A DNA stretch of 64,000 bases. Origin: Nocardiopsis gilva YIM 90087. Lineage in GTDB: Bacteria > Actinomycetota > Actinomycetes > Streptosporangiales > Streptosporangiaceae. Each line of letters begins with the position of its first letter. The first letter of the stretch is position 1. Both the position numbers and the translations under genes were made by a program. Below, in pieces: positions 6,455 to 14,187 of this stretch. Under the pieces are notes generated by a model that made no database searches, had not been told where the DNA came from, and saw only the letters and a program-made list of their open reading frames with translations. The stretch is taken from positions 1,550,001-1,614,000 of the forward strand of contig NZ_CP022753.1 in NCBI RefSeq assembly GCF_002263495.1. Reading direction: 5' to 3'.

Positions 6455-6944
6455 GCGAACGCTGATACCGGAGCGAGCGGAGGTGACCGCCCCGCGCAGG
6501 CTCGGGGTAAGTCGGCGGGACCACGCCGACGCGTGCGGGAGTCCCTTCCGACGCGGCAGGGTCCTGCATGATCTATGCGGGGGTATTGACCGGGACTGAC
6601 CAGAGGCAGAAACATTTAGTTAGCCACCGGGTGCGAATGGTAATAAGACCAGGAGAAGCAATAACCCGATTCTGCGAGGGGGCACCGCAGAGTATCGGCT
6701 CACGCTGGACGCAATAGCCGAGCGAGATCCGTCTCCGGGATAGACCATCACGATCGGAGCGCGACAACGAGTTCGACGGCGTACCGAGCCCGTCGAGCAC
6801 CGCCACACCCGTGAAGTTCCTGACCGGCCTGGAGGGGATCGCCCGCACCAGGCCGTCCGCGGACACCGGACTGCTGGCGCGCCGGGTTGATTCGTCTGCG
6901 ACTCCACGACGCTGGAGCCGCGACCTCAATGGGAGGGGAGTTCC
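6455..6944. other. 490-base gap before lsr2
   Basis: A terminator-like stem GTCGGCG-N6-CGCCGAC lies at 6511-6530, 57 bases after the upstream stop. The part from 6595 to 6690 is lower in GC. The minus strand at about 6770-6900 has a short protein-like stretch without recognised homology. A GGGAGGGGAG site precedes the Lsr2 start. Confidence 0.45.
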
Positions 6945-7280
6945 ATGGCACAAAAGGTCCAGGTCCTGCTGGTCGACGATATCGACGGAGGTGAAGCCGA
7001 CGAGACGGTGTCGTTCGCGCTCGACGGCAAGAACTACCAGATCGACCTGTCCGACCGTAATGCGCAGAAACTGCGGAAGTCACTGGCGGAGTTCGTCAAA
7101 GCCGGCCGCAAAGCCGGCAGCCGAGCCGGTGGACGCGGCAAGGCCCGTAAGGCCCGCCCGGCAGCTAGCGAGGACACTGCCGAGATTCGCGCATGGGCCA
7201 AGAAGAAGGGCTACGACATCAGCGAACGAGGCCGCATTCCGGCCGAGATTCGCGAGGCTTACCAAAAAGCCGCGCGGTGA
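6945..7280 (+). CDS. lsr2: Lsr2 family nucleoid-associated protein
   Basis: A 111-residue Lsr2 protein, the actinobacterial H-NS-like silencer that bridges AT-rich DNA. The N-terminal dimerisation domain is clear (MAQKVQVLLVDDIDGGEADE, then TVSFALDGKNYQIDLSDRNA and LRKSLAEFV). A basic linker of KAGRKAGSRAGGRGKARK type leads to the C-terminal DNA-binding domain, AEIRAWAKKKGYDISERGRI, with the AT-hook-like RGR and the closing IPAEIREAY helix. The length is normal. Actinomycetes often carry two or more paralogues; this copy sits among lower-GC non-coding DNA, so it may be an accessory one. A perfect hairpin follows. Confidence 0.95.
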   Translation: MAQKVQVLLVDDIDGGEADETVSFALDGKNYQIDLSDRNAQKLRKSLAEFVKAGRKAGSRAGGRGKARKARPAASEDTAEIRAWAKKKGYDISERGRIPAEIREAYQKAAR

Positions 7281-7296
7281 ACGCGCACAGAGCAGG

Positions 7297-7334
7297 GGTA
7301 ACGGTCACTGAGCGATGGCGAGGTGACCGTTACC
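7297..7334 (+). terminator. 12-bp perfect stem-loop after lsr2
   Basis: GGTAACGGTCAC and GTGACCGTTACC form a perfect stem with a 14-base loop, 17 bases after the lsr2 stop. Confidence 0.75.
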
Positions 7335-7640
7335 GCATGCGGGCGATGGACGGGAGGGGCTGAACCGGCCGGGGGCGGATCGCCAGGACGCGGGACGGGC
7401 GCTGATCTCGGTGCCCTATCCCGCAGGCGTCAGCTCATGGACGTCGTGGTGCAGGTCTGGTTGCACGAGGTCATGCCGCATCCACGCCGAACGTGATCTC
7501 TGTTGTCGCGATGTAGCCCCTGAGTCACAGCTTCCCGAGCTTCCTACGTGTTCTATGCAGGCCTTGCTGTAGTGGGCTGAACATCCCATGATTGGGTGTT
7601 AGTTTCCGGAATCAGTCGAACGCAGAGAGCGAGGCTTGGC
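7335..7640. other. 306-base gap, nothing recognised
   Basis: No gene or clear regulatory site is visible. GC content drops between about 7490 and 7630, just before the next short gene. Confidence 0.4.
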
Positions 7641-7877: not shown

Positions 7878-8311
7878 ATGTTCTGGTCGACGCCCCCATG
7901 GTCGCTGCTGTGGTTGGCCGGACGGGACGTGTTCCACCCGTGGGGCGCGATCAGCCGGGCGGCGGGTTGCCAACGGCGGAGCGCCCTCCTGCTGCGCGCG
8001 ACGCTGGAGGTGTACCTCGCCCCATCGCGGACGACGTGACCCCGCCCGGGTTCGCCCCACTCGGATGCCGGGATGGGGTGGAGAGCCGACCGGACGCGTG
8101 GGTGCTGCTGTTCCTGCATGATGTCGAGGCGGTTGAGGAGCACGCGACGAAGCACGGTCTCGACATCGCCGGCCCGGCGACTCAGCGGGCGTTCCTCGAC
8201 ACGATGGCCGAGGACGACCCTCGCGTCGTGCGTGGCCACCCGGTCGCAACGAACCGTGCTGGTGCACGTCGGGGCGTAAGTACAAGAACTCTGGTGCTCA
8301 CAGTGTCATAG
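7878..8311 (+). pseudogene. unrecognised gene, probably frameshifted near 8030
   Basis: From ATG 7878 one frame is rich in G/C at third codon positions (STPPWSLLWLAGRDVFHPWG, then SALLLRATLEVYLAP) but stops at 8039. A second frame, open from GTG 8036, continues with the same bias (RPDAWVLLFLHDVEAVEEHA, later AFLDTMAEDDPRVV) to 8311. The two frames overlap by GTGA, so they could also be two coupled small genes, but a one-base loss in a G/C-rich run explains both halves better. The last 15 codons look degenerate. No family is recognised. Confidence 0.35.
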
Positions 8312-8331
8312 GGGCCTGTCACGATGCGTGC

Positions 8332-8922
8332 ATGGAGACCAGTCACGAATCGCAGCGGGTTGACGCTTCCTGGGACCGCATTGCGGCATGGCTCCGCCGC
8401 CATGTGCCCGAGGCAGCGGCGCAGCTCGGGCCGCCAGCAGCGGAATCGGAGCTGGCCGAGGCGGAGTCCGCCGTAGGACGGCCGCTTCCCGCTGACCTGA
8501 CGGCCTGGTGGCGACGTAGCTGCGGCATGACAGGTGCGCCCTTGGTCGAGTTGGTGCCGCTGTTCACCCCCTTCAGCATTGAGGCCGCCTTGGAGTGCAG
8601 GAACTCGCTCCTGAGGATCTGTGGGGGTGATGGCACGGATTCGGCGGACCTCGCGGGAACACCTGCCTGGGACTGGCACGCGGCGTGGTTGCCAATCGCC
8701 TATGACGGGGGCGGCTGGTACCTCTTCTGCGACCTTCGCCCCGGGCCGATGAGTGGATGCGTGACCAGATGGATGCGGGAGGATGCGGCCCTGCATGGCC
8801 CGGAGTGGGAGAGCGTGGGGGCGATGCTCGCCGATGCGGCCGCATCGATGGATCGGGGCATCGCCAGCAATGACTGGCGGGCCCAAGTGGACGAGGACGG
8901 GGGATTGACCTGGGAGCCATGA
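8332..8922 (+). CDS. SMI1/KNR4 (SUKH) family protein
   Basis: A 196-residue protein of the SMI1/KNR4 group: SWDRIAAWLRRHVPEAAAQL, then PPAAESELAEAESAVGRPLP (the typical start, an acidic helix followed by LPxDL), WWRRSCGM, and WLPIAYDGGGWYLFCDLRPG. In bacteria the SUKH superfamily contains many immunity proteins of polymorphic toxin systems as well as housekeeping regulators. No toxin gene is seen beside it, so it may be an orphan immunity-type gene. The start is ATG 8332; its ribosome binding site is weak. Confidence 0.8.
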   Translation: METSHESQRVDASWDRIAAWLRRHVPEAAAQLGPPAAESELAEAESAVGRPLPADLTAWWRRSCGMTGAPLVELVPLFTPFSIEAALECRNSLLRICGGDGTDSADLAGTPAWDWHAAWLPIAYDGGGWYLFCDLRPGPMSGCVTRWMREDAALHGPEWESVGAMLADAAASMDRGIASNDWRAQVDEDGGLTWEP

Positions 8923-9033
8923 GTCTGCACCCCGCCCCCCAATTCCTCTGGAATGTCATCTAGGCAGAAGTTGCGTGCTCGCCGTACGCCCGGAAGAGCG
9001 CATCGTCTGGACTGGAGCTTCAGACGGCAATGC

Positions 9034-9608
9034 CTATGACGACTTGCGGGCCGTCTCTGACGGCGCACGGGCATCGCCGACGTGGGAGGGAGCAGGTTCC
9101 GGCGCCTTGCTGGAGCTCAGCCGTTCCAGATCGCGGGCCAGGTGGGGGCGGGGGAGGCGGCGGGTGCGGAGGAGGCGTGTGATGTCCGCGCGGTTGTCGT
9201 GCGACAGCTGGATGTGGAAGTAGTTGATCTGCTCCAGGACCGCGAACGTCCACAGCCCGGCGCCGGGCCACACGTGCGTCCATGGGTCACCGGCGGCGAA
9301 TCCGGCGCCGATGACTGTGGCGCCCCCGGCGAGAAGGACGACGTTGGCGGTGCGCAGGTGCCGGAAGGCCGCGAGGCTCGCGGGAAGGTGCTGGCCCATC
9401 GCAGGTGCCGGTACTTGATCCACCAGTAGGCGCCGCCCTCGATGAGGATCAGCGCGAGGAGCGCGAACGCCGTGAGGTTGGCCGCGGACGCGGGCATGTG
9501 CCACAGCCAGGCAATGGCAGGGAAGAGCACGAGAGCGTTGAGCCACTCGAGCAGAGCCAGTGTGCGCATCCGGCGGATGGTGGGGGAGGAGCGGAGCGGG
9601 GTAGACAT
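9034..9608 (-). pseudogene. four-segment membrane protein gene, frameshifted near 9394
   Basis: From ATG 9608 the first frame encodes two hydrophobic segments (LEWLNALVLFPAIAWLWHM and LTAFALLALILIEGGAYWW) up to IKYRHLRW. The remainder, starting QHLPASLAAFRHLRTANVV and continuing with VLLAGGATVIGAGFAAGD, WTFAVLEQINYFHIQLSHDN and a basic tail, lies in the next frame and stops at 9034. One missing G or C in the run at 9391-9397 restores a continuous protein of about 190 residues. The family is a hypothetical actinobacterial membrane protein. It may be a true pseudogene or an assembly error. Confidence 0.7.
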
Positions 9609-9664
9609 GGCTGGGTCCTCGTCGCGCGGCGGTGGGGTGGGGGAGTTGGAAAGCTGGCCGCCGG

Positions 9665-10186
9665 TCAGGGTGGGGTGCTGGAGCGGATCAGTTCGACCAG
9701 CTCCGGCCAGGTGTCGGCGCGGATGGCCCAGGGCGGGATCTCGGCCGGGGGACGGTGGTGGCCCAGTCCGCCGGTGAACAGGTAACGGTGGGGCACGGTG
9801 GTGAGGTGCTCCAGTACGTCGAGCCGGTCGTCGACGAAGTGGGTGACCCCCAGCCGTGCGCACACCGGTGCCTTGTCGGGGCGTTCCGGGACGAAGTGCA
9901 GGTGCGCCGCGGGGATGCCGGTGCGGTCGGCGAAGTCCTGTCTGGCCAGCCAATCCCGGGTGCGGTGGGCGGTCTCGAGCTTGGCCTTGGACACGATGTA
10001 CACCCGCCCCGCGAAGGGCTTGCTCGCCAGTTCCGCGAGGGCGTCGAAGGCGCCGTCCACGGCCGGGGTCTCCATCGGTCGATCGCCGAAGAACGAGGTG
10101 TCCTGGCCATCGGCCACGCGGTCGATGATCACCCCGCCCACATCCACGCCGAGGACAGGGAGTGCTCCGTCCCCTCTTTCAGCCAT
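9665..10186 (-). CDS. HAD-like protein
   Basis: A 173-residue haloacid-dehalogenase-fold protein. It shows motif I as LGVDVGGVIIDRV, a central VYIVSKAKLETAHRTRDWL (motif II Ser in VSK) and the C-terminal RPDKAPVCARLGVTHFVDDR with the Lys and the DD acidic pair of motifs III/IV. The second Asp of motif I is replaced by Gly (DVG), as in several HAD subgroups, so phosphatase activity is uncertain. The start is ATG 10186; upstream frame extends without coding character. It lies downstream of, and 56 bases from, the frameshifted membrane gene and diverges from the EF-G-domain-IV-like gene. Confidence 0.75.
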   Translation of the reverse strand: MAERGDGALPVLGVDVGGVIIDRVADGQDTSFFGDRPMETPAVDGAFDALAELASKPFAGRVYIVSKAKLETAHRTRDWLARQDFADRTGIPAAHLHFVPERPDKAPVCARLGVTHFVDDRLDVLEHLTTVPHRYLFTGGLGHHRPPAEIPPWAIRADTWPELVELIRSSTPP

Positions 10187-10325
10187 GCGGTTTCCGTCAC
10201 CTGGTTTCTGTCCGGTTGCCACTTGGAAGCGTAAGGGCCGTTGGCGGCTACGATCATCGCACCTGCGGCGGGTTGAGGGCAGGGGCTGCCGAGCGGCCGT
10301 GATCCGTGAGTGAGAGCGAGATTTC

Positions 10326-11237
10326 ATGCGCACTGACCGGAACCAACGTCCGCCTGTCCTCCCTCGCTCGGTCACCGGAGCTCGTGTGCGCCACAGCGCG
10401 CGGGTCGGTGACGGTTGGATGCACATCACGCTCGGAATCGACTTCGAGCCGCTGTCCGACGACGTGGCCGACGACTTCGAGTTTGCGGTGGAGCTGGCTG
10501 AGTCGGAGCGAGTGCTGCCTCCGGCGTCGATCCAGACGTTGGGTCAGGAACTCGACGACGAGTGGGAGAAGGAAGGCACAGGCCGGCCGGTGTTCCGTGC
10601 GCGAGCGGTGGTGCGGCGCGCCGAGTGGCACCTGGCCGGGGTGGAGGACGACTCCGTCGCGGTAGCCGAGCTCGACCGCGTTCTCGGGCACGCCGCCTGC
10701 TGGGTCGTCGGCGAGGTGCGGTGGGCTCTGGCCGAGGAGCGGGATCCGCGACCGGTCGGACGCGATGTGCTCGGACGTCCGCCCGCGTTGCCTCGCGATG
10801 TTTCCGGCGTCTACGTACGTCACGTCAGGGTGAGCTGTCCTCCCCAGTGCGCTGTCGTGTGGGCTGACTTCATGCCGCTTCCGGATGACGGCGCCGGGGA
10901 CTTCGCGTTCGTCAACGACGCTCCCGCCGTGTGCCGGCATCCTGGCGAGCCCTTGCCAGCCGAGTTCGCCTCGGCGTTCGGTGATGGTGTCCGCGAAGCG
11001 TTGGAAGTACACGGAAGCGGTCGGCCACTCTTCGCCGCTCGTGCGGTGCTGCGCGATGCTGTTTGGCACGAGCTCGACTCCACGGCTCACGCCTTTCGCG
11101 TGGCTGGGTGGCTGGCAGCCATCGAGGTGAGGCGCTGCATCCTCGAAGATCGCGAACCGCGACCGGCCGGGAGCGGGCTGCGGAAAGACGCTTCCATCCC
11201 GCCGATGCCGAGGACGAGGACACTGTCGACATCCTGA
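10326..11237 (+). CDS. protein of two tandem EF-G domain-IV-like modules, no GTPase
   Basis: A 303-residue protein built of two similar halves, about residues 15-145 and 157-275. The second half follows elongation factor G domain IV closely: VRHVRVSCPPQCAVVWADFM, FAFVNDAPAVCRHPGEPLPA, FASAFGDGVREAL, then GRPLFAARAVLRDAVWHELD and STAHAFRVAGWLAA, which corresponds to the GYPVVD...L..G.YH..DSSELAFK.A part of EF-G. The first half repeats this with IDFEPLSDD, GRPVFRARAVVRRAEWHL and VLGHAACWVVGEV. No P-loop, G2-G4 motifs or other EF-G domains are present. In EF-G this domain mimics the tRNA anticodon arm. The function here is unknown; a ribosome-directed role is an inference. Start ATG 10326. Confidence 0.75.
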   Translation: MRTDRNQRPPVLPRSVTGARVRHSARVGDGWMHITLGIDFEPLSDDVADDFEFAVELAESERVLPPASIQTLGQELDDEWEKEGTGRPVFRARAVVRRAEWHLAGVEDDSVAVAELDRVLGHAACWVVGEVRWALAEERDPRPVGRDVLGRPPALPRDVSGVYVRHVRVSCPPQCAVVWADFMPLPDDGAGDFAFVNDAPAVCRHPGEPLPAEFASAFGDGVREALEVHGSGRPLFAARAVLRDAVWHELDSTAHAFRVAGWLAAIEVRRCILEDREPRPAGSGLRKDASIPPMPRTRTLSTS

Positions 11238-11593
11238 TCCGTGAGCATCGCGTGGGCGCGAGTGACTACTCGAGGTGCCTGGGGGTTGAGTTCCGGGATC
11301 GTGCCGGTCGCGGAGATCTCGCCGGTCATCCGCGAGCGAAGGAGGGGGATGGCGCCGGGGCTACTCCTCTCAGCCGTCCACGGAGAGCGGGTCCGGATGC
11401 CGCTCCCCCTCCAGCGCGTCGTGTGGTCGGATGCGTGCTGTGCGCATCCGACCGGGGCTGAGTCTTGCGTATCCCGCCCCGCATAGTCAACACTGAATCG
11501 TCTGTAGTAAACAGTTTGTCGATCATGTGCGATTCGTGGTTGCAGGCGGGAGAGGAGGCGTGGTCCGTGATCGCAGCATCTACGCTCTGCACT
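11238..11593. other. 356-base gap before a TetR gene
   Basis: No gene is recognised. The DNA is GC-rich to about 11470; then an AT-richer stretch at 11480-11535 contains CTGT-AGTAA-ACAG (about 11499-11511), a possible small operator in the promoter of the TetR gene. Confidence 0.4.
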
Positions 11594-12669: not shown

Positions 12670-14187
12670 ATGATGGCCCCGTACGCCTCGCCGTCGTCCT
12701 GTCCGCTGCGCTGGCACATCGACTTCACCGGGGTCGTCACCCTCGTCCTCGACCAGCACGGCACCACCGCCAACCTCCTCACCGACGGCCTCGTCGACGC
12801 CCTCGCCGATGCGGCCGAGCACCTCCACCGCGACAGGCAGGACATCACCGGCGTCCTCCTCACCTCGGCCAAGCCGACGTTCATGCTGGGCACCGCCTCC
12901 GACACGCTGGACCACCTCGCCCATGACCCCCACGACCGCAGCGCCACCCTGGGCGTCCTCCGCACGACCCTGCGCCGCCTGGAGCGGCTCGGTTTCCCGG
13001 TCGTCGCGGCGATCGGCGGCAGCGCGCTGGGCGCCGGGTTCGAACTCGCGCTCGCCTGCCACCACCGCATCCTCCTCGAAGACGACGGATGCCGCGTCGG
13101 GCTCCCCGACGCCGACGCGGGCCTCCTGCCCCTCGCCGGTGGTGTCTCCCGCTCCGTCCACCGGTGGGGCTCGGCGCCCGCACTGGCCAACCTCCTGAAC
13201 GACGACGCCGTCTACGCGCCGCGGCGGGCACGCGCGCTCGGCCTCGTCGACGAGCTCGCTCCCGATACCGACGCCATGCTGCGGCAGGCCGAGGCCTGGA
13301 TCGCGGCCCACCCGGCGCCCGTACAACCCTGGGACCGCATCGGCCACCGCATGCCGCCCGGCCCCGCCCACACCCGTCCGGTCGCGTCCGCCGACGTCTC
13401 CTCCGCACGGGCGACGCTCATCTCCACGGCCTACCGCGTCGCCGCCATGGCCGGGATCGACGCCGCGCTCGCCATCGAGCAGAAGGAGTTCGGGGCCCTC
13501 CTCGCCGAAACCACCACGTTTCGGATCCGGAATCGGCCCGCCGCACCCGATCGCCGCGGCGACGATGCCGCCGATGCTTCCGACGCCGCTCCCGAGATCC
13601 TCCGTGGCCACCGATCGCGCGGCACCTGCCCCACCTGCCGGCAGGCGCGAATGGACCCGCTGCCCATCCCCGCCCCGGCGCGCCTCCTCATCGCGGGCCG
13701 TAGCGGCGACGGCCGCTCCTTCGACATCTCCGAGGCCTCCCCGTCCCGGGTGGCGGGCGAGCCCGGGGCGGTCGACGACTTCTGGTGCACGGGCCCGCAG
13801 GAGCCCGGTGTGCCCGCCGCGGCCGACGCGGTGGGACCGCCCCAGGGCGGCAGCATCTTCCGCATGTTCTATGTGCAGCCCGACCGGGTGTGGCAGGGCG
13901 GTGACGGCGATCAGGGAGAGGAGGACGTGCGAACGCGCGACGTCCTGCGCATCCTGGGGCACAACGCGATCGGCGGCGGCACGGCCGACGCCGACGCGCT
14001 CGGGGGTGCGGGCTCCACCACGGGCTACTTCATCGTCCTGTCGGGCACCGTGGTCTGCGTGCTGGGCGACGACGAGGTGGAGCTGGGGCCCGGAGACGTC
14101 GTCGTCCAGGACAGAACCGGCCATGCCTGGTCCAACCGAACCGACGAACTGGCGGTGATCGGTGTGGTCCTGGTGAGCGGCCAGTGA
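12670..14187 (+). CDS. crotonase (enoyl-CoA hydratase/isomerase) fused to a cupin domain
   Basis: A 505-residue protein. Residues about 15-285 are a crotonase-fold domain most like the hydratase part of fatty-oxidation complexes: ITGVLLTSAKPTFMLG, FPVVAAIGGSALGAGFELAL, CHHRI, and VGLPDADAGLLPLAGGVSRS. The first catalytic Glu position (GFELA) is kept; the second, normally GLPE, is Asp (GLPD). Residues about 335-505 are a complete small cupin protein (ARLLIAGRSGDGRSFDIS to TTGYFIVLSGTVVCVL, VELGPGDVVVQDRTGHAW). A linker with CPTCRQ joins them. An in-frame ATG at 13651 could start the cupin alone. The fusion is unusual; an ancient or artificial loss of a stop is possible. Confidence 0.75.
   Translation: MMAPYASPSSCPLRWHIDFTGVVTLVLDQHGTTANLLTDGLVDALADAAEHLHRDRQDITGVLLTSAKPTFMLGTASDTLDHLAHDPHDRSATLGVLRTTLRRLERLGFPVVAAIGGSALGAGFELALACHHRILLEDDGCRVGLPDADAGLLPLAGGVSRSVHRWGSAPALANLLNDDAVYAPRRARALGLVDELAPDTDAMLRQAEAWIAAHPAPVQPWDRIGHRMPPGPAHTRPVASADVSSARATLISTAYRVAAMAGIDAALAIEQKEFGALLAETTTFRIRNRPAAPDRRGDDAADASDAAPEILRGHRSRGTCPTCRQARMDPLPIPAPARLLIAGRSGDGRSFDISEASPSRVAGEPGAVDDFWCTGPQEPGVPAAADAVGPPQGGSIFRMFYVQPDRVWQGGDGDQGEEDVRTRDVLRILGHNAIGGGTADADALGGAGSTTGYFIVLSGTVVCVLGDDEVELGPGDVVVQDRTGHAWSNRTDELAVIGVVLVSGQ

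Follow-up and report, generated by a model that had tools for sequence, protein, structure and literature searches.

A GTPase-free protein of two tandem EF-G domain-IV modules and its scattered family of actinomycete relatives

The gene described here lies in a stretch of DNA of 64,000 nucleotides, the whole of which was analysed and is called the window. It occupies positions 10326 to 11237 of the + strand, and its open reading frame (ORF) starts with ATG and encodes 303 amino acids that carry the elongation factor G (EF-G) domain-IV motif quoted for it in the original prediction. The ORF, Pfam, a phmmer search of the PDB, a structural model and structure matching together define the whole gene as two EF-G domain-IV modules without a GTPase. 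The N module (residues 1-151, positions 10326 to 10778, + strand) was assigned from the model and from alignment columns, has no Pfam match, and has a predicted domain-IV fold in which the tip motif is largely lost. The C module (residues 152-303, positions 10779 to 11234, + strand) was assigned from Pfam, structure matching and columns, and its tip is kept (Cys171, His248 and Asp251-Ser252). Within the C module, the columns place a strand and tip loop I at residues 159-175 (10800 to 10850, + strand), with a cysteine new to the family at residue 171, and the phmmer alignment and the columns place tip loop II, HELDS, at residues 248-252 (11067 to 11081, + strand). A C-terminal tail, IPPMPRT (residues 291-297, 11196 to 11216, + strand), was defined from alignment A1, in which its PPMP is present in six of seven two-module proteins and 14 of 28 single-module proteins of the host family. 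This proline-rich tail is an addition relative to EF-G domain IV. GC content at codon positions 1, 2 and 3 of the gene is 0.77, 0.52 and 0.77, a coding signature weaker than that of most relatives, and a simple codon-based gene caller passed over the ORF. Six other genomes contain relatives that align with most of the protein at 42-58% identity, which favours the reality of the gene.

The Pfam EFG_IV profile (PF03764) matches residues 173-264 with 2.4e-4 and 21.3 bits in the whole protein and with 5.4e-5 and 23.4 bits in the C half alone, in both cases just below its curated cut-off of 24 bits. When this search was applied to each half, as had been proposed, it matched the C half at that score, below the cut-off, whereas the N half gave no Pfam or NCBIfam match at E up to 10. 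At that limit the Pfam scan of the protein gave EFG_IV and nothing else, and a GTP-binding G domain is absent; EF-G domains II, III and V had no match in Pfam or NCBIfam. The NCBIfam EF-G models align to the protein solely across their domain-IV part, and no unrelated family in Pfam or NCBIfam scored better for both halves. The claim that no G domain and no other part of EF-G is present agrees with these scans. In the PDB, phmmer found 27 sequences, all of them EF-G, the best being 4myt at 1.2e-4. By blastp the N and C halves are homologous (2e-18, 40% identity over 141 columns), and their Smith-Waterman score was 183, compared with a mean of 36, an SD of 5 and a maximum of 71 in 1000 shuffles. 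The C-side sequence used in this comparison also carried the reverse-frame protein P0002 behind it, and the best alignment lay wholly within the C half.

The whole protein was modelled by AlphaFold2 with 35 family sequences (pLDDT 90.8, pTM 0.85). Residues 148-274 of this model superpose on domain IV (residues 485-606) of M. tuberculosis EF-G1 with a Z score of 14.9 and 2.4 A over 119 residues, its best match, and the best 50 structure matches of the whole model were EF-G or EF-G homologues, nearly all over the range of about 148-274. The N half was also modelled alone, from seven N halves (pLDDT 86.0). Its best match was EF-G domain IV, with a Z score of 11.8 and 4.8 A over 122 residues, and some other EF-G entries gave 2.7-3.4 A over 106-117 residues. 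Among the best 50 N-half matches 49 were EF-G-type (Z 9.6-11.8), and one was a spliceosome chain (Z 9.8, tied with the lower EF-G ones), which we take to be the EF-2 relative Snu114. The Foldseek matches listed for the N half were all EF-G. Both halves fit the fold in these superpositions, as had been predicted. On the models both halves are domain IV, the C half also by its EFG_IV match and the N half by its kinship to the C half and its predicted fold; the pTM of 0.85 suggests that the two modules may pack in a fixed arrangement. We regard it as nearly certain that the window protein consists of two EF-G domain-IV modules and no GTPase.

The gene is solitary. Its upstream neighbour, encoded on the opposite strand, is a 158-residue protein without a Pfam match, and its downstream neighbour is a TetR-like regulator (TetR_N 5.8e-4, below the cut-off). 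A sister genome is collinear with the window from about 11336 to at least 19800, at 77-87% identity, and this collinearity ends 99 bases past the gene. The sister genome matches again at 6618-7345 and 7905-8053, with order and orientation conserved. From about 8050 to 11336 no match was found at the corresponding place in the sister genome, which is occupied there by other genes. Within this variable stretch are a SUKH (SMI1/KNR4) gene (8332-8922), a pair of short ORFs and the gene described here. Since the stretch is variable between conserved flanks, the window gene was considered an accessory gene. In the downstream region, one ORF at 12670-14187 encodes a cupin domain C-terminal to an enoyl-CoA hydratase domain, and the sister genome has kept this ORF.

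The host genome is a single contig of 6.14 Mb, and the sole other match to the window protein in it at E up to 0.001 was in an EF-G frame of 755 codons. A family profile gave four matches in this genome, the one listed being the window's C module. The window protein was also searched against one other genome of the host genus, which gave an EF-G match only and no free-standing relative. Across the host family, relatives without a GTPase were found in at least 36 of 297 genomes, the host's own included (best E 5e-206 to 3e-11). The remaining host-family matches listed were full EF-G-like factors in frames of about 650-830 codons, save one short frame (G139, 1e-8), which was left out of the 36. 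At least seven of the 36 genomes, the host's own included, have the two-module form, and the identity of the other six proteins to the window protein is 58% (G011), 52% (G085), 52% (G008), 45% (G045), 44% (G101) and 44% (G073). The other translated members from the host family are single modules of 131-168 residues. The single module is the commoner form of the family, and the window protein is one member of this family and no lone oddity. Two members can occur in one genome: G276 has two singles about 9.5 kb apart (L047, 6063-6410 and 15840-16259), and G085 has one two-module protein and one single (L037 and L071).

Named records with members (14 loci) came from Nocardiopsis species, Murinocardiopsis flavida, Marinactinospora thermotolerans, one organism labelled Glycomyces fuscus and an actinomycete MAG. 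Two singles on linear plasmids are annotated as hypothetical, WP_328743556.1 (Streptomyces caniferus) and WP_185303171.1 (S. finlayi). A member identical to the S. finlayi plasmid single is carried by G704, which belongs with G603, G617 and others to a genus set of 246 genomes that we infer to be Streptomyces. From this set 13 singles in short frames were translated, 12 from the best of the list over the 246 genomes and one from G603; others, e.g. G738 and G510, were not used. G617 encodes a two-module protein of 294 residues (L084) with two EFG_IV stretches (E 4e-18). When 394 genomes across the class were searched, the short frames among the matches listed belonged to the host family or to that of Streptomyces, except for G316 and G512, whose matches start 166 and 352 bases into the contig and may be cut EF-G. 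Alignment A1 contained 37 rows and omitted G079, G214, G139, G247 and the second copies of G232 and G276. The G079 sequence is out of family after about residue 265 and is perhaps a remnant two-module gene, and G214 has a broken frame. L050 and L073 have an arbitrary N-terminus, as no start codon was found. Of the 37 aligned members, 32 had an EFG_IV match with E no higher than 1 (3.5e-12 at best). Five relatives were above the 24-bit cut-off, at 65.8, 32.0, 31.5, 31.4 and 30.0 bits; the plasmid member L033 had no EFG_IV match at E up to 0.1. The family is one of accessory, fast-changing, motor-less EF-G domain-IV proteins scattered in actinomycetes.

The tip columns were compared among three groups: C modules together with singles (51 rows, 50 distinct), domain IV of EF-G (17 rows) and N modules (eight rows). 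In the C and single modules Gln is found at column 168 in 40, His at 248 in 38, Asp at 251 in 46, Ser at 252 in 48, Phe at 257 in all 51 and Gly at 261 in 49, and each of these residues is present in 17 of 17 EF-G rows. The same six residues are found in one, four, one, three, two and one of the eight N modules, respectively, whereas the core columns Asp181, Pro184, Ala260 and Glu267 are each kept in all eight. For example, the window's N module has Arg at column 168 and keeps the His248 column, and it is without Asp251 and Ser252. The N tip of the Streptomyces two-module protein is also weaker, with no Cys and with Arg for His, but its Ser, Phe and Gly are kept. Because the N modules keep the fold without the tip, the conservation of the tip elsewhere points to function rather than structure, and the tip is probably the working part and not a folding need. 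From the columns, then, the two-module protein is one presumed working tip plus one degenerate module. The original prediction of a free double domain IV, which could serve on ribosomes as a decoy, inhibitor or protection factor, was correct as to two tandem modules, but these are not two equal decoys, since the N module lacks most of the tip motif.

The tip is not identical to that of EF-G. The loop-I glycine is replaced by Cys171 in 45 of the 51 C and single modules, and a cysteine is found there in none of the 17 EF-G rows. A second cysteine, Cys271, is present in 39 of the 51. The second tip Gln of EF-G (column 174) is kept in three and lost in 48 of the 51, and Gln168 and His248 are both present in just 31 of the 51 rows. 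The window's own C module has Arg at 168 and His at 248. The phmmer alignment pairs His248 with T. thermophilus EF-G His573, and the E. coli residues at columns 168 and 248 are Q507 and H583 (508 and 584 counting Met). Alone, phmmer aligns loop I of the window protein otherwise, with His166 opposite the tip Gln of T. thermophilus and an insertion of two residues; the loop-I column assignment appears less sure for the window protein itself. Excerpts of two papers describe the E. coli residues: Q507 and H583 are reported to contact the complex of tRNA and mRNA as it is translocated (PMC9307594), and translocation is transiently stalled in the H583K mutant (PMC4490557). The modules are not basic, with a median pI of 6.7 for C modules and 6.2 and 5.3 for two sets of singles.

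In a tree of 76 domain-IV rows, the 17 EF-G rows fall on one side of a long branch (support 100/100, length 1.06). The seven host-family N modules form a single clade (100/99) and can be accounted for by one duplication. In the Streptomyces protein L084 the two modules group with each other (98/91), a hint of a second duplication. In the AU test a single origin was not rejected for all eight N modules (p 0.42) or for the C modules (p 0.13). The N halves change faster than the C halves. The pN/pS values were 0.68-0.92 for N halves versus 0.40-0.62 for C halves (four overlapping pairs) and 0.37-0.56 for singles (eight pairs), values that are unreliable in absolute terms because of strong codon bias.

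Domain IV of EF-G is commonly regarded as the far end of a lever that GTP drives. A tip kept by selection while the lever is gone would let the tip's own action on the ribosome be studied directly, and the N modules would be a ready natural control, having the same fold and little tip. Our best guess, made by inference and held at rather less than even confidence, is that the protein acts through the C-module tip at the 30S A site without GTP and with the N module as a scaffold. The tip of the C module would do the work, as in EF-G, through transient docking at the A site or decoding centre of the 30S subunit, or at an equivalent RNA site; ribosomes emptied or stalled under stress would be an alternative target. 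Translation would in this way be modulated or protected without the power of GTP hydrolysis, and the N module would shape or orient its working partner in the manner of a fused dimer. This reading is favoured because of the fold of both modules and the tip columns of the C modules and singles, including those of Q507 and H583, and the conservation of these columns makes an action at the ribosome plausible. Against it are the loss of the column-174 Gln, the change of the loop-I Gly to Cys, the Arg168 of the window protein, the lack of His248 in 13 of 51 rows and of the pair Gln168 and His248 in all but 31, the modules' lack of basic character, and loci examined that show no conserved translation or antibiotic gene beside the family. 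In addition, EF-G owes much of its grip on the ribosome to domains other than IV. A bolder form, in which a motor-less mimic of the tRNA anticodon arm plugs the decoding site, a new, nearly constant tip Cys beside the conserved His/Asp gates docking through the chemistry of its thiol (oxidation or covalent bonding), one module of the tandem form is a scaffold and the whole is a new class of ribosome factor, would be a long shot. If it acts on ribosomes, the family may point to a hitherto unrecognised means by which actinomycetes, among them many antibiotic makers, tune or shield translation.

The main rival to the A-site reading is that the domain was exapted as a scaffold for a job outside translation, in which the loop-I Cys and the loop-II His/Asp would turn the tip into a novel site for catalysis or sensing. 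We hold this to be somewhat less likely than the A-site reading, and there are reasons on both sides. First, and in its favour, Cys171 and Cys271 are frequent in the family, the former in none of the EF-G rows, and the EF-G rows are set apart by the long, well supported branch. Secondly, and also in its favour, the surroundings show no conserved link to translation in the loci examined. Neighbours were clustered for 41 loci (38 host-family stretches, the window and two plasmid records) and for a second set of 22 loci (20 of the Streptomyces genus and the two plasmid records), and none were common to the family beyond ordinary synteny; the synteny shared was that of seven genomes of one clade, a Nocardiopsis block, and six Streptomyces loci beside one gene. 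Since these clusters are ordinary synteny only, no functional partner follows from the neighbourhood, and no conserved translation or antibiotic gene adjoining the family was seen in the loci examined. The survey of homologues and neighbours that had been called for yielded a family, but no shared neighbour of this kind. Third, and against exaptation, tip loop II is still that of EF-G and was not rebuilt, with D251, S252, F257 and G261 each found in 46-51 of 51 rows. The columns of Q507 and H583 likewise retain their residue in 40 and 38 of the 51, respectively.

A second rival is that the protein is a decoy or immunity factor, in which a mimic of EF-G domain IV binds and neutralises a toxin or factor aimed at EF-G. 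We consider it improbable. SUKH is a class common among toxin-immunity genes, and in five of 11 genomes examined (G000, G174, G209, G232 and G276) a free-standing domain-IV gene has one at a distance of no more than about 3.5 kb, although SUKH matches are few, at one to five per genome. However, four of the five cases share one Nocardiopsis block and are not independent, so the link is a weak lead, and in the part of the neighbours that was scanned no toxin gene was seen beside the family. The genes are scattered, mostly solitary and variable, two of them are on plasmid records, and modules are fused in tandem, all as a decoy might be; yet one tip is lost in every two-module form, which a decoy would not need. 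The existence of such partners is illustrated by FusB-type proteins, which bind EF-G according to an excerpt of PMC3352095. Lastly, a functionless, decaying EF-G fragment is very unlikely, for although the N halves have the higher pN/pS, the window gene has a weak codon signature and the frame of G214 is broken, intact members exist in several genera, the tip and the C-terminal tail are sharply conserved, and pN/pS is 0.37-0.62 in C modules and singles.

The family resembles EF-G domain IV in its fold, in tip loop II with its His and Asp-Ser and, in most relatives, in the tip Gln column. It differs from EF-G in having no G domain and no domains II, III and V, in the Cys that replaces the loop-I Gly and, in the window protein, in the doubled module. 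The family profile also matches actinomycete EF-G paralogues of about 700 residues, presumably FusA2-like; the domain IV of one of them, L087, reaches 5e-25, compared with 7.5e-21 for L100, which groups with the host's own EF-G in the tree. The paralogues are full-length factors, and all 17 EF-G rows, theirs included, are apart from the family. Ribosomal protection proteins of the Tet(M) and OtrA type have an EF-G-like GTPase, whereas the window protein is without their G domain. The FusB-type proteins, as described in the excerpt cited above, are likewise small accessory proteins, with a link to EF-G function, but FusB binds EF-G and the window protein resembles EF-G itself; the Pfam scan gave no FusB-family match to it. 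Domain IV itself is known, and an excerpt of a survey of translational GTPases describes it as part of the EF2 family (PMC4342817); the GTPase-free, free-standing, tandem architecture appears to be new. Among the open-licence papers listed, none by title and the start of the abstract concerns a stand-alone or tandem GTPase-free domain-IV protein, save for one phage label, the 'EFG_IV domain protein' ORF170 of Stenotrophomonas phage vB_SmaM_Ps15, named in PMC9025141. For this 146-residue protein (UMO77321.1, OL702939.1, L180 10862-11302) the label is not supported, since its EFG_IV E is 0.25 and its match to the family profile is unconvincing (probability 1.3%). None of 33 pattern matches in viral contigs and none of 55 in a first contig scan with the window protein were relatives, and phage records gave one unannotated match (0.03). 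A DrmD match of the window protein in PADLOC (0.04), two weak PHROGs matches of another member (0.02 and 0.044) and matches of two members to ribosome modulation factor (best 0.35) were judged to be chance.

Two further observations concern the neighbours of single-module genes. In six Nocardiopsis-type loci (L042, L045, L046, L047, L048 and L051) a conserved, small, cysteine-rich protein ends shortly before the start of the single module. As called, it has 114 residues in L046 and 117 in L047, with MERCDFCELPI..GGC near its start and ATRRCQSCD near its end, and relatives of it were found in three further loci (L055, L057 and L072). In six Streptomyces-genus loci (L136, L138, L139, L142, L143 and L146) the single-module gene follows one common gene in shared synteny, which looks to us like a dimethylarginine dimethylaminohydrolase.
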